Positions 4,798 through 11,523 of a DNA stretch of 21,256 bases are shown one piece after another (positions within the stretch are counted from its first letter, which is position 1; the number at the start of each line of letters is the position of its first letter). The DNA is taken from the IMG/VR virus record IMGVR_UViG_3300025128_000417, positions 1-21,256 of that record; one strand, given 5' to 3'. The DNA is from a virus. Both the position numbers and the translations under genes were made by a program. The notes below the pieces were generated by a model, which did no database searches, was not told the DNA's origin, and saw only the letters and a list, made by a program, of their open reading frames with translations.

Positions 4798-5031
4798 CTA
4801 CTCACTGACACGAAGCTGGAACTCTCGCGAGTATCGATTCCAATTCCCTCTCATAGTCCACCAGCAATCGAGCGAACAAAATCTGCGTCTGGCCCATCGC
4901 TTCCACGGCTCGTTGGCCGGCTTCGCATAGGCATCGCCACAGCATTCGCAGAGCTTGGTTCTCTCGAGCAGTGTCGGACCCTGTTCACCCTTCCTCGGCC
5001 GTCCCGGCTTCCTGGCCCGCTCAGACACCAC
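4798..5031 (-). CDS. AT-hook plus zinc-finger small protein
   Basis: I place the start at one of two tandem GTG codons (5029-5031 or 5026-5028), because AAGGA lies just upstream and the frame overlaps the last codons of the PAPS-reductase-like gene. An ATG at 5094 gives a longer frame without a ribosome site, deep inside that gene. The 76-77 residue product has an AT-hook core (ARKPGRPRKGEQ, about residues 5-16), then CECCG about residues 28-32, then RRRFCSLDCW about 48-57. The two Cys pairs (C-x-x-C and C-x-x-x-C) probably bind one zinc. The many tryptophans and arginines afterwards suggest a compact DNA-binding fold. A role in DNA recognition during packaging or transcription is inferred from neighbours only. 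Confidence 0.6.
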   Translation of the reverse strand: MVSERARKPGRPRKGEQGPTLLERTKLCECCGDAYAKPANEPWKRWARRRFCSLDCWWTMRGNWNRYSREFQLRVSE

Positions 5032-5869
5032 ACATTCCTTCGCATTCGTTGTCAAACAAGTCAACCTGGTTGGGATCAGCTCCAAACACAGCATCCTTTA
5101 GCGGTACACATGATCGATGTATATATCCAGGCGCTTCTCGCTCACGCATTGTCATATCTCGAATCCCTTCATCAAAATCAACAGCTTTTTGGAACTCTTC
5201 TGGATGATCATTCTTCATCCATTGCCAGTAAGCATCAGAATGAAATGGGCAATAAACACAAGCTGATCGTTGTGGTTCTGGTAGCCCTGCATCCTCTATG
5301 ATCTTGTAGCAGTCTTCTCGCCGAATGCTCAGGTCTATCAAAGGCCAACTGTGAGTAATCCACCCGTGCCACGACTCTTTCATCCTCTGGATTTCATCCA
5401 ATGAAATGCCGAGCATACACCTCACTCGTTCTTTGACACGTTGCCTCGGCTTATATCCCAAGTGCGTTCTTACTGCTTGGATGATGGGATCAATCTTGAA
5501 CTCTCGAGTGCATTGTCGGCGCAGCATCCCCTTCGATCCGTCAGAGTTTTTGGTGAACAACGGCACAGTTACAAATCGCTTACCGGCTTTTTGTCTGTCG
5601 ATCACCCACTCACTCAACACGCCCTTCTGGGCCACCACCACCTCTACGCCATACGGCTCTGCAAACTCCTTCAACACCTCCAAGTATTCATAGACCCACG
5701 CCGGCTCATCACCTGTGTCTGCGAACACCGCAATGTCAGGTTTAGGCACTCGATCATCGGTACACGCCAACACCAGTAACGCCGAGCTCTGGACCCCAGC
5801 TCCTAACGACAGATAGGTGAAATCATAATCACCCGATGTCGTGTCGATTAGCCGACTAGCTGGCTTCAT
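5021..5869 (-). CDS. Phosphoadenosine-phosphosulfate-reductase-like (PP-loop) protein
   Basis: This 282-residue adenine-nucleotide alpha-hydrolase-fold protein has an N-terminal PP-loop variant (YLSLGAGVQSSALLVLA, residues 19-35). FADTGDEPAWVYEYL follows at 49-63, as in PAPS reductases. LRRQCTREFKIDP (116-128) and GISLDEIQRMK (154-164) come next, then SACVYCPFHSD (202-212), a Cys pair (204, 207) with a conserved Pro-Phe. This combination is typical of the PAPS-reductase-like proteins common in phage genomes. The C-terminal redox ECGLH motif of true PAPS reductases is absent, so sulfate assimilation is doubtful. DndC-type sulfur chemistry on DNA or a tRNA-thiolation-like activity are alternatives. 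Its ATG overlaps the end of the small terminase gene (ATGA), placing it in the packaging operon. Three cysteines (120, 204, 207) could hold an Fe-S cluster or zinc (inference). Confidence 0.85.
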   Translation of the reverse strand: MKPASRLIDTTSGDYDFTYLSLGAGVQSSALLVLACTDDRVPKPDIAVFADTGDEPAWVYEYLEVLKEFAEPYGVEVVVAQKGVLSEWVIDRQKAGKRFVTVPLFTKNSDGSKGMLRRQCTREFKIDPIIQAVRTHLGYKPRQRVKERVRCMLGISLDEIQRMKESWHGWITHSWPLIDLSIRREDCYKIIEDAGLPEPQRSACVYCPFHSDAYWQWMKNDHPEEFQKAVDFDEGIRDMTMREREAPGYIHRSCVPLKDAVFGADPNQVDLFDNECEGMCGV

Positions 5870-9036: not shown

Positions 9037-9415
9037 CGCCGTGAGCTCCGTAGCTGATCTCAACCCGGGGATACTCGCGATCAATACCCATGTTTTCCCA
9101 TGACAGCTTTTCTATCTGCTTATCATCGACATAGACAATGCCTTCCAGTGCGTCAGCGATTCCTTTGAGTAGGTTGTTAGGATCTCTCCTGCGCTTGTCT
9201 GGCATATAGAACGCCAGATGCATCCACACAGCACCTTCCGGATGCACAGGCCGACCTCGCACCTGAGTCATCGCCAACGTAGCGCACAGCTCTTTCCCTG
9301 CTCGATAGCGTTTCGTGAGGATATGTCCCTTGCCACCGATAAATCTGCGGTTGTCAGGAACTAACCCTTCCCACGGCAACACAATGTCGTAGGGGTAATC
9401 GCTACCCTTCGCCAC
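9029..9415 (-). CDS. rusA: RusA-family Holliday junction resolvase
   Basis: The 128-residue product has the RusA-fold pattern: an N-terminal VLPWEGLVPDNRRF strand, a helix, a central WMHLAFYMPDKRRRDPNNLL segment (64-83), then KGIADALEGIVYVDDKQI (84-101). Acidic residues D78, D88 and D97/D98 match the metal-binding aspartates of RusA. Length and order fit the family (about 120 residues). RusA-type enzymes cut four-way junctions in phage replication and recombination intermediates, consistent with the exonuclease and ERF genes in the same operon. The start codon is GTG (cac 9413-9415) with a weak ribosome site; the gene overlaps the preceding 84-residue gene by 14 nt, so coupled translation is likely. 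Confidence 0.88.
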   Translation of the reverse strand: MAKGSDYPYDIVLPWEGLVPDNRRFIGGKGHILTKRYRAGKELCATLAMTQVRGRPVHPEGAVWMHLAFYMPDKRRRDPNNLLKGIADALEGIVYVDDKQIEKLSWENMGIDREYPRVEISYGAHGDG

Positions 9416-9656
9416 GACTTCGCTGGTGCTGAAGTTGCTTCCTGGCTTCGATTAAAGCGCCTTCAGCTTGCACTAAATGAGTGCGAGCCCTCTCCAGATA
9501 GCCTTGGCCGGCCTCGTTCACGATGTCCCAAGGCACGTTGCCTAACTTCGCTCTCAACCTCTCTGAATCTTTGCTGACTGCCCCCAATATTGCAGCACAA
9601 TCGTCGAGCAATTTGTCGCGATCTAGCTGCAATCTACTTGTTGTTTTACTTGCCAT
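9402..9656 (-). CDS. Small coiled-coil protein of unknown function
   Basis: This 84-residue, highly helical and charged protein begins MASKTTSRLQLDRDKLLDDC and ends in GALIEARKQLQHQRSRGEG, with heptad-like leucines. The ATG follows AGGAGAG and overlaps the last 11 bases of the methyltransferase gene. No family is recognised. Its position between the methyltransferase and RusA suggests an accessory to replication or recombination, but nothing in the sequence shows this. It has no cysteine pairs, membrane segment or clear DNA-binding motif. Confidence 0.6.
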   Translation of the reverse strand: MASKTTSRLQLDRDKLLDDCAAILGAVSKDSERLRAKLGNVPWDIVNEAGQGYLERARTHLVQAEGALIEARKQLQHQRSRGEG

Positions 9657-10881
9657 TCATTCTCTCCTGAGATTCTGCGTGAGCCAACACTCGCCTACCG
9701 ATATATTCTGCTACCTGTGGCACTATGGCGTTTCCGAGTCCTTTAAGTCTGTCCACCCTGTTGGGAACCCCATGAGCCACTCGACCCACGTCGGGTTCAA
9801 CTGCCCAGTTGCGTTCCCAACTCTGCCCGCCACTACCTCTTCCAAATTGGACTTGTTTCGATTCGCCAACTTCTCCCTGTTTTTTTCCGTAATCATCGGA
9901 TGAACTTTGTTCGCCTTGGGCGTGGGCCACCTCTTCTGCATCTTCTCGTAAGATCGATGGTTTTCCAACTTCGTTGCTGTCATTATCTCCATCTCTTCTT
10001 TTGTGATCTCGCCTTGTATCATCTTCTTGTAGAGATTCTGATATTGACCTTCGCTTCCGTGTCCGTAACCCTTCGTGGTGGGTGTCGGCCACATCTCCTG
10101 CTTTGCCCCCCTTGTCCGAAGACCTTCGGCTATCAAGACTTCCTCGTTCAATATCTTCCCCCCTTTGCCGTTGGGTCTGCTCCCTGGATTTCCGGCTCTG
10201 GGCGTGGGCCACATCTTTACTTGGTTCGATAGACTCTTTTGGTTGGAGCTGTCCATGTTTTTGTAATCGGATGACAGAGGTGTCGGCCACACCTCCTGCT
10301 TTGCCACCTGTACCCTGAGAGAGTCCCTCGTCCCTGCGTGATCGGTCTCCAGTTCCCATTGCGTCACGTCTCCGTGCTTTGCTTCTTGAGCCAGTGGCGT
10401 GGGCCATGATGAAGATCCTTTTTCTGAGGTGGGGAGCACCCACTGAGGCAGCGGAAACAATGCCCCACTCCGCATCATACCCGAACTCGGAAAGGTCTCC
10501 GAGAACGTCTCCCATGCCTCGAACAAGCAACCCTGGTACGTTCTCCATAATTGCGTATCTGGGTCGTAGCTCGCGTATGATCCGTCCGAATTCCGGCCAT
10601 AACCATCTGTCATCGTCTTGTCCTTTTCGTTTGCCAGCTACGCTGACTGGTTGACATGGAAATCCTCCAACTAGAACATCCACTGGCGCTAAATTGTGAG
10701 CACCGACATCGTGTATGTCGCCATAGCATGGCACACTCGGCCAATGCTTTGCGAGCACCTTCTGGCAATAAGAGTCCCACTCAACTTGCCATACGACCTC
10801 AAACCCATTTGTTCGCTCTAGCCCAAGATCAAAACCACCTATGCCAGCGAACAGTGAGCCTACTCTAAAAGGGCTTGTCAT
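9646..10881 (-). CDS. dcm: DNA (cytosine-5) methyltransferase
   Basis: This 411-residue enzyme methylates cytosine C5 using S-adenosylmethionine. Visible motifs are I, GSLFAGIGGFDLGLE (8-22); IV, GGFPCQPVSVAG with catalytic Cys76; VI, MENVPGLL (112-119); VIII, VGAPHLRKRIFI (147-158); and the C-terminal IX-X block, RVAHGVPNRVDRLKGLGNAI (367-386) then VPQVAEYIG. Between VIII and IX, where the target-recognition domain should lie, about 200 residues are unusually hydrophilic and low in complexity (RRDAMGTGDRSRRDEG and similar). They contain periodic VAHA/VADT tetrapeptides. A second long frame runs through exactly this part (see the nested gene). No restriction endonuclease is next to it, so it is probably an orphan phage methylase for self-protection. 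It overlaps its upstream neighbour by 17 nt and its downstream neighbour by 11 nt. Confidence 0.9.
   Translation of the reverse strand: MTSPFRVGSLFAGIGGFDLGLERTNGFEVVWQVEWDSYCQKVLAKHWPSVPCYGDIHDVGAHNLAPVDVLVGGFPCQPVSVAGKRKGQDDDRWLWPEFGRIIRELRPRYAIMENVPGLLVRGMGDVLGDLSEFGYDAEWGIVSAASVGAPHLRKRIFIMAHATGSRSKARRRDAMGTGDRSRRDEGLSQGTGGKAGGVADTSVIRLQKHGQLQPKESIEPSKDVAHAQSRKSREQTQRQRGEDIERGSLDSRRSSDKGGKAGDVADTHHEGLRTRKRRSISESLQEDDTRRDHKRRDGDNDSNEVGKPSILREDAEEVAHAQGEQSSSDDYGKKQGEVGESKQVQFGRGSGGQSWERNWAVEPDVGRVAHGVPNRVDRLKGLGNAIVPQVAEYIGRRVLAHAESQERMNGK
9723..10613 (-). CDS. WPTP-repeat protein nested in the methyltransferase gene
   Basis: A 296-codon ATG frame on the same strand lies wholly inside the methyltransferase gene, covering its residues about 90-386 in another frame. 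AAGGA sits seven bases before the ATG. The product opens MTDGYGRNSDGSYASYDPDT, then LWRTYQGCLFEAWETFSETF and SGMMRSGALFPLPQWV. Five WPTP motifs start at residues 70, 109, 135, 175 and 229, usually after K-x-x or K-R. It ends LNPTWVEWLMGFPTGWTDL. Unlike the methylase frame, which is charged and repetitive here, this frame has normal protein composition. From memory, similar WPTP/LNPxWVEWLMGFP proteins accompany C5 methylases in many phages, with no known function. It could be a real overprinted gene, or partly a shadow of conserved methylase codons (VAHG in one frame is WLMG in the other). Confidence 0.6.
   Translation of the reverse strand: MTDGYGRNSDGSYASYDPDTQLWRTYQGCLFEAWETFSETFPSSGMMRSGALFPLPQWVLPTSEKGSSSWPTPLAQEAKHGDVTQWELETDHAGTRDSLRVQVAKQEVWPTPLSSDYKNMDSSNQKSLSNQVKMWPTPRAGNPGSRPNGKGGKILNEEVLIAEGLRTRGAKQEMWPTPTTKGYGHGSEGQYQNLYKKMIQGEITKEEMEIMTATKLENHRSYEKMQKRWPTPKANKVHPMITEKNREKLANRNKSNLEEVVAGRVGNATGQLNPTWVEWLMGFPTGWTDLKDSETP
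10611..10625 (-). promoter_or_regulatory. Internal Shine-Dalgarno and start codon for the nested WPTP frame
   Basis: On the minus strand AAGGA (10621-10625) precedes ATG (10611-10613) by seven bases. It lies within the methyltransferase coding sequence just after its catalytic motif IV. This spacing is ideal for initiation and is the strongest sequence sign that the nested frame is translated independently. Confidence 0.5.
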
Positions 10882-11134
10882 CTGAGTCAGTTGGCTTCGC
10901 TGACTGATAGGTGTTCACCTCGAGGTAAAGAGGTGGAGCCTCTAGGTTTTTGCCGTCATAAATCTTGACATCGATCTTGACCATCTCCTGGTCGGACTTC
11001 TTCGCTAAAAATTCGATCAACTGCTCTGGATACAGACGCAACGTGCAACAGATAAATTTGGCCTGTGCCGGTGAGCTCGGAGCAGAGACAGTCAATCCGC
11101 TCGAGCGATTCACAAATTCCTTATCTCTTGGCAT
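10865..11134 (-). CDS. Small unknown phage protein, 89 residues
   Basis: I place the start at ATG 11132-11134 (MPRDKEFVNRSSGLTVSAPS), with AAGGAAAG just upstream; the first possible ATG at 11164 would overlap the previous gene and lacks such a site. After a short polar N-terminus the protein has alternating strand-like segments (KFICCTLRLYPEQLIEFL, VKIDVKIYDGKNL, PPLYLEVNTYQ) and an acidic tail (PTDSDDKPF). An all-beta core with an acidic C-terminus recalls single-strand-binding-type phage proteins, but no OB-fold signature is firm. It sits between the winged-helix gene and the methyltransferase in the replication/recombination operon and overlaps the latter by 17 nt. Confidence 0.6.
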   Translation of the reverse strand: MPRDKEFVNRSSGLTVSAPSSPAQAKFICCTLRLYPEQLIEFLAKKSDQEMVKIDVKIYDGKNLEAPPLYLEVNTYQSAKPTDSDDKPF

Positions 11135-11148
11135 TCTTCTTTCCTTGG

Positions 11149-11523
11149 TTAAATGATGCGCCATATTCTGGCGCGACGACCACTGCGAGTTGCAGCGGTA
11201 TCTTCAGTCATCTTTGCTAACCCGAGCTCCCTTAGCTCAGGTAGCCGGCGACTGGCAGCAGCGTGACGCCATCCAAATACTTCTTCGATAGCATCGGCCG
11301 TTCCACCCTCTGGATTGTTCCGTAGCCACTCCAGAATCTGACCTCGCCGTGAAGCAGCAGAAACGTGCATCGATTTCGCTGCCTCATGTGAAGTGTCTGG
11401 GTCAGAGTTGCGAGCTCTAGGCGGGACGCCAAACAATGATTCCTGGTTGGGGTCGTGAAATTGTCTTTTCCGTTTCGGCTCTTCCTCAAAGTCCTGTTCG
11501 TCCATGCCTGTCCGGCGCGTCAC
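11149..11523 (-). CDS. Winged-helix DNA-binding protein
   Basis: This 124-residue product starts at GTG (cac 11521-11523) with AAGGA nine bases upstream; the GTG overlaps the ERF stop (GTGA). An ATG seven codons in is an alternative. Residues about 1-38 are charged and disordered. From SDPDTSHEAAKSM the sequence matches a common phage winged-helix family: RRGQILEWLRNNPEGGTADA, then EVFGWRHAAASRRLPELREL (recognition helix) and GLAKMTEDTAATRSGRRARI forming the wing. I know this layout from many phage genomes, usually unnamed. It probably binds DNA, perhaps as a regulator or in replication. Its place directly after ERF suggests early expression. Confidence 0.72.
   Translation of the reverse strand: MTRRTGMDEQDFEEEPKRKRQFHDPNQESLFGVPPRARNSDPDTSHEAAKSMHVSAASRRGQILEWLRNNPEGGTADAIEEVFGWRHAAASRRLPELRELGLAKMTEDTAATRSGRRARIWRII

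Follow-up and report, generated by a model that had tools for sequence, protein, structure and literature searches.

What is a second long reading frame doing inside the gene for a phage DNA-cytosine methyltransferase? The question is raised by an IMG/VR virus record of 21,256 bases, which was analysed at its full length (the window). On its minus strand, within a phage recombination/replication operon (Erf, DnaD-like, exonuclease VIII-like, DnaB-like and RusA-like genes), lies a 411-residue C5-cytosine methyltransferase frame (M, positions 10881-9646), alpha-like in its content of motifs I-VIII and X (PF00145, E 1e-49; match to M.HhaI; motif X profile, E 7e-20). Nested in it on the same strand, +1 relative to M, is the 296-residue frame of a beta-like WPTP-repeat protein (W, 10613-9723); the two genes share 891 bases. 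W has its own ATG and, seven bases before it, the Shine-Dalgarno-like sequence AAGGA (10621-10625, minus strand), which lies within the M codons for GKRKGQ; the bases preceding the W start are GAAAAGGACAAGACG. An earlier note on this DNA had located both frames and the ribosome site correctly. Two small genes without a PHROG match directly flank the pair, one on each side, with overlaps of a few bases (window positions 9402-9656 and 10865-11164, minus strand). The same operon also holds a PAPS-reductase-like gene (5021-5869, minus strand; phrog_424, E 8e-44); phage genes of that kind are sometimes connected with DNA sulfur or nucleotide modification.

The repeats of the two proteins come from the same DNA. 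Five words, at 10395-10406, 10278-10289, 10200-10211, 10080-10091 and 9918-9929, are each read as WPTP in the W frame and, in that order, as MAHA, VADT, VAHA, VADT and VAHA in M. The earlier note had listed these words with small offsets in position, and had described M as charged in the shared part and W as normal in composition, which the counts bear out: 38% of M residues 166-372 are charged, versus 21% of residues 1-165 and 24% of W.

W is a real, conserved gene that is overprinted on M. It belongs to PHROG family 1008 (phrog_1008, E 3e-35), and its 296 codons are free of stops where shuffling of M's synonymous codons predicts 8.5 +/- 2.0 (none of 20,000 shuffles was stop-free). A scan of viral sequences seeded with W yielded more than 590 relatives; in all 80 of those kept for analysis W lies exactly +1 of M, and the third frame, at 4.6 stops per 100 codons across the W stretch, is open in none. 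Loci that were not chosen through W agree: a viral scan seeded with M gave 72 of 80 with motif IX in the +1 frame and motif X in the M frame, the arrangement of the window. It is also the arrangement of 73 of 80 W-seeded prokaryotic loci, and the GTDB scan found 349 relatives in many phyla, one archaeal MAG among them. The statement in the earlier note that WPTP proteins occur beside phage C5 methylases is too weak: the genes are not merely adjacent, they overlap, in the same +1 phase, at nearly all loci examined. Among side observations, the Roseovarius MAG OX638333.1 has five near-identical M/W copies of equal score and length on one chromosome (L239, L240, L242, L243 and L244), which points to a repeated element or to several prophages related to one another.

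The positions of nucleotide substitutions tell the two frames apart, as the earlier note had proposed that they might. In the WPTP part, 61% of the substitutions among relatives fall at the first position of M codons, which is the third position of W codons, and 15% at the third position of M (the second of W), although these totals are not independent counts, since the pairs overlap, and close relatives of the window are few. Where M alone is encoded, third positions take 61% of the substitutions before W and 69% beyond its end, and in a control set of 80 canonical C5 methylases they take 57-62% in all regions, with no shift. Single close pairs also display the shift: L014 and L034, for instance, differ at 34, 7 and 2 first, second and third M positions. 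In its WPTP part the window differs from L024 at 25, 6 and 10 and from L086 at 6, 2 and 2; the longer alignment with L001 is short there and gives an unclear 4, 8 and 3. Over the N-terminal domain of W, the variation of M's four-fold-degenerate third bases is 0.52, versus 0.68 upstream (p 3e-14); the matching comparison in the canonical controls gives 0.705 and 0.705. Of 209 loci, 95 have, in the W frame, a start codon with a Shine-Dalgarno sequence of at least four bases at the place of the W start; in the two remaining frames 25 and 21 loci have such a pair there.

Across the shared part, hardly any constraint at the protein level acts on the reading of M, in contrast to that of W. From 10401 to 9760 M encodes the charged, low-complexity stretch that is overprinted on the W repeats; its character is brought out by the substitution positions and by stop shuffling. 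Over 197 loci the M frame contains no stops in the overlap, versus 669 expected when the synonymous codons of W are shuffled (none versus 6.9 in the window itself), yet 26 stops, with 38 expected, are found in the six loci whose W itself reaches motif X. M is therefore held open, and its charged stretch is apparently a linker that is kept stop-free so that motif X stays attached to motifs I-VIII. The earlier note had supposed that the target-recognition region of the methylase is overprinted with a second protein. The overprinting and the conservation of W stand; the assignment does not, for it is W that supplies the target-recognition position, together with motif IX, over an M reading that is barely constrained.

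In C5 enzymes target recognition sits between motifs VIII and IX, and motif IX links the domain responsible for it with the core of the enzyme, as in M.HhaI. The catalytic and SAM-binding part of M, with the PCQ loop and ENV, is present (10402-10866, minus strand; motifs I-VIII matching M.HhaI 13-170 at E 4e-24). Motif X follows at 9697-9759 (RVDRLKGLGNAIVPQVAEYIG): M residues 375-395 align weakly with residues 295-315 of M.HhaI, with a negligible score of their own, and the alignment and the profile together place the motif (RLKGLGNAIVPQVAEYIG) in the M frame, where, past the end of W, substitutions return to third positions as already stated. What was not found in the M chain is motif IX; its profile matches the W frame only. 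W begins with a domain that overlies motifs V-VIII of M (10407-10613; YDPDTxxWRTxQ...SETFPSSGMMRSG...; profile E 1e-35) and that coincides with the reduced wobble variation of M. The WPTP-repeat stretch that follows (9801-10406) falls between motifs VIII and IX, where target recognition is located, judged by its placement in single-chain relatives, and the C-terminus of W ends in the motif IX equivalent LNPTWVEWLMGFPTGWTDL (9744-9800; profile E 2e-18).

The identification of that C-terminal motif is indirect. A direct search of W against Pfam, NCBIfam and PDB sequences gave no C5 match and left motif IX unrecognised; nor does a profile of the W C-terminus by itself score significantly on Dcm. 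The link runs by way of relatives in which the whole methylase is a single chain. Compared as profiles with Dcm and six phage C5 methylases, these can be aligned through motifs IX and X with a probability of 99.9: RLAAAFPEWMMGWP of the single-chain relatives stands opposite Dcm RLTPRECARLMGF, as does RLAAAFPEWMMGWPAGWVT, and the next segment, LGNGVVPQQ, stands opposite FGNSVVVPV. The motif IX of W then reads LNPTWVEWLMGFP, with LTPRECARLMGF as its Dcm counterpart.

Relatives divide the motifs between the frames in three ways: motif IX in +1 while motif X stays in the M frame, which is the layout of the window and of most loci; motifs IX and X both in +1; and motifs I-X in a single chain. The second is represented by 15 actinophage-type loci in which M ends directly past motif VIII, at 164-204 residues, and one W reading frame holds IX and X; M likewise ends past VIII, with W continuing through IX and X, at L166, L172, L187, L198 and L097. 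The third is represented by Babsiella gp54, prophi104-2 gp17, xhp1 and 57 viral loci, and many of these single chains have PTP repeats between motifs VIII and IX. The number of PTP repeats ranges from 0 to 7 across loci. Over all loci searched, motif IX is found in +1 only at 264 and in frame 0 only at 63; no locus has it in both, and at a few it lies in frame 2 or was not found. The frame 2 cases (L215, L143, L144 and L288, relative to motifs I-VIII) may be copies that have suffered a frameshift or are decaying, or may reflect errors in sequencing. A further oddity is L248 (bases 875-2411, on the Paenibacillus polymyxa plasmid pAP1), where two successive W-type C-terminal motifs lie in +1 under a 511-codon M frame, as if the end that encodes motif IX had been duplicated. 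Where an actinophage-type locus has a complete single chain, the W N-terminal domain is in most cases still present in +1, and at L124, L133, L083 and L264 a nested +1 gene for this domain, with a few PTP words, is still open beside a complete I-X chain. The domain may therefore act beyond supplying motif IX, perhaps in a separate function.

Structure models bear on the same division. An AF2 model of one single-chain relative (L262) matches M.HhaI end to end (1-407; Z 23.5, 242 residues aligned, rmsd 3.8), with motifs I-VIII and IX-X predicted at pLDDT above 90 (91-98 for IX-X) and the repeat part below 50. W modelled alone gives a weak result (pLDDT 64.5, pTM 0.34), and a fold search with that model had no PDB match, which shows neither a new fold nor the absence of one. 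So weak a model would be expected of half a domain, but proves nothing.

Taken together, these observations are best explained by W and M being the two chains of one naturally split C5-cytosine DNA methyltransferase encoded by overlapping genes, to which we give a probability of roughly 0.87. The design would be related to that of M.AquI and M.EcoHK31I. Both frames are under selection, and motif IX, missing from M, is present in W, at its C-terminus; the frames in which IX occurs are mutually exclusive, and the motif aligns with IX of Dcm, so that it lies on a second polypeptide and the parts are complementary. The earlier note had taken W for a second protein without a known function. That description does not survive: W carries the variable region and the motif that M lacks, and some relatives have it joined in one chain with motif X or with motifs I-VIII.

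Other readings of the locus differ in how much of this they accept. That W is merely a shadow frame, held open by the codon usage of M, has a negligible probability. Its one point of attraction is that part of the profile of the W N-terminal domain weakly matches the +1 frame of four canonical methylases, so that some of the resemblance is a by-product of the conservation of M and, by itself, is no proof of a gene; the substitution, stop and wobble tests with their canonical controls rule the shadow frame out, for the +1 frame of the canonical enzymes has 4.5 stops per 100 codons and is fully open in none of 80 loci. A real but separate protein, such as an anti-restriction or regulatory factor that happens to share DNA with a complete methylase, would account for W having its own start signals and its own family, and for the N-terminal domain being kept in +1 even beside a single I-X chain. 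We consider it unlikely, because the supposedly complete methylase lacks motif IX here and in most loci, and because the C-terminal motif of W aligns with canonical IX and is the very part that relatives fuse to X or to I-VIII.

One could also imagine a single long methylase, made by ribosomes that shift +1 from the M frame to the W frame past motif VIII, with no start of W's own. At loci where M ends just past VIII such a shift would yield a full I-X chain; with the layout of the window it would lose motif X. The N-terminal domain of W lies upstream of any shift point and is itself constrained, as seen in the lowered wobble variation that canonical controls do not share, and Shine-Dalgarno and start sequences are enriched at the start of W. 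An independent start and a constraint upstream of the shift point are both found, which disfavours frameshift fusion and makes it very improbable.

The proposed split enzyme has precedents. The smaller chain of M.EcoHK31I is read from an alternative frame inside the larger gene. As far as the account in PMC3404938 goes, M.EcoHK31I is a two-polypeptide C5 methyltransferase specific for YGGCCR whose larger chain has motifs I-VIII and X and whose smaller chain has motif IX, as in the window, and it is the closest description, likened here by motif layout. The two differ in that the same account predicts the target-recognition domain of M.EcoHK31I in the larger chain, whereas here the variable region is in W, and in that M.EcoHK31I belongs to a restriction system, whereas none of the phage neighbours examined here was recognised as a restriction gene. 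M.AquI (CYCGRG), also of two polypeptides, has its break between VIII and IX, and its second chain carries both IX and X (PMC3404938), like L166, L172 and L187; in the window, unlike M.AquI, motif X stays on the first chain and the genes overlap by the 891 bases already mentioned. Both natural split enzymes are active, as are C5 methyltransferases bisected artificially between motif VIII and the recognition domain (PMC3404938, PMC5944983). The actinophage protein Babsiella gp54 has, like the window, a catalytic part, PTP repeats, a motif IX (FPEWMMGWPAGWVT) and a motif X, with the difference that its M frame also encodes IX and X, which makes the chain complete; gp55 is a nested +1 gene for the W N-terminal domain within it. 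A ShiLan phage methylase with a hidden HNH endonuclease (PMC11855218) is likewise a case of a methylase gene read a second time in another frame, but that insertion is a mobile homing endonuclease of patchy distribution, whereas W is integral and conserved. Single nested genes have been annotated (Lily gp63, 'g62 internal gene'; the Kagunavirus 'Mte8-like' gene; Babsiella gp55), and our literature search found no paper that describes or explains the nested gene, 'Mte8-like' having one passing mention without explanation.

How a split methyltransferase of this kind would work can be sketched from the distribution of its motifs. One message with two overlapping genes would yield both chains, W being translated from its own ribosome site inside M. 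M would supply motifs I-VIII (SAM binding, the catalytic PCQ loop and the base-flipping core), a long unstructured linker and then motif X; W would contribute its N-terminal domain, motif IX and, at the place of target recognition, the variable region of PTP repeats. The location of the PTP region between VIII and IX suggests that it reads DNA. M and W would bind each other and, as an active complex with a specificity of its own, methylate cytosine in phage DNA. Orphan phage methylases usually serve to shield the phage's DNA against restriction by the host, and escape from restriction is the most likely benefit here also, which would give M/W an anti-restriction role.

A wider conjecture, which we hold tentatively and think somewhat more apt to fail than to stand, is that C5 methylases of bacterial and archaeal mobile elements include a large, obligately bipartite family with a +1 overlap, in which motifs IX and X have swapped frames several times. 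Its new recognition module would be the small N-terminal domain with a variable number of PTP repeats, gain and loss of repeats would change specificity, and M would follow passively as a linker.

The M/W type of putative split enzyme is widespread and hardly described: hundreds of phages share its layout, as do genomes of prokaryotes from many phyla. What is new, as far as we have searched, is this breadth, the evidence that both frames are under selection, the finding that one enzyme can be divided in three interchangeable ways, and the recognition of WPTP proteins as the missing part. Many annotations of "complete" DNA-cytosine methylases in phages and prophages probably encode part-enzymes, the remainder, including the likely specificity part, being encoded by an overlapping frame of a kind often discarded in gene prediction. 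If so, functional screens would fail when the annotated frame alone is cloned, and predictions of phage methylation specificity would be made without the right sequence. M/W is, besides, an unusually clean case of a long, deeply conserved same-strand overlap: since the motifs of one enzyme are shared out over its two frames and have changed frame from lineage to lineage, it allows one to trace directly how overlapping genes evolve.
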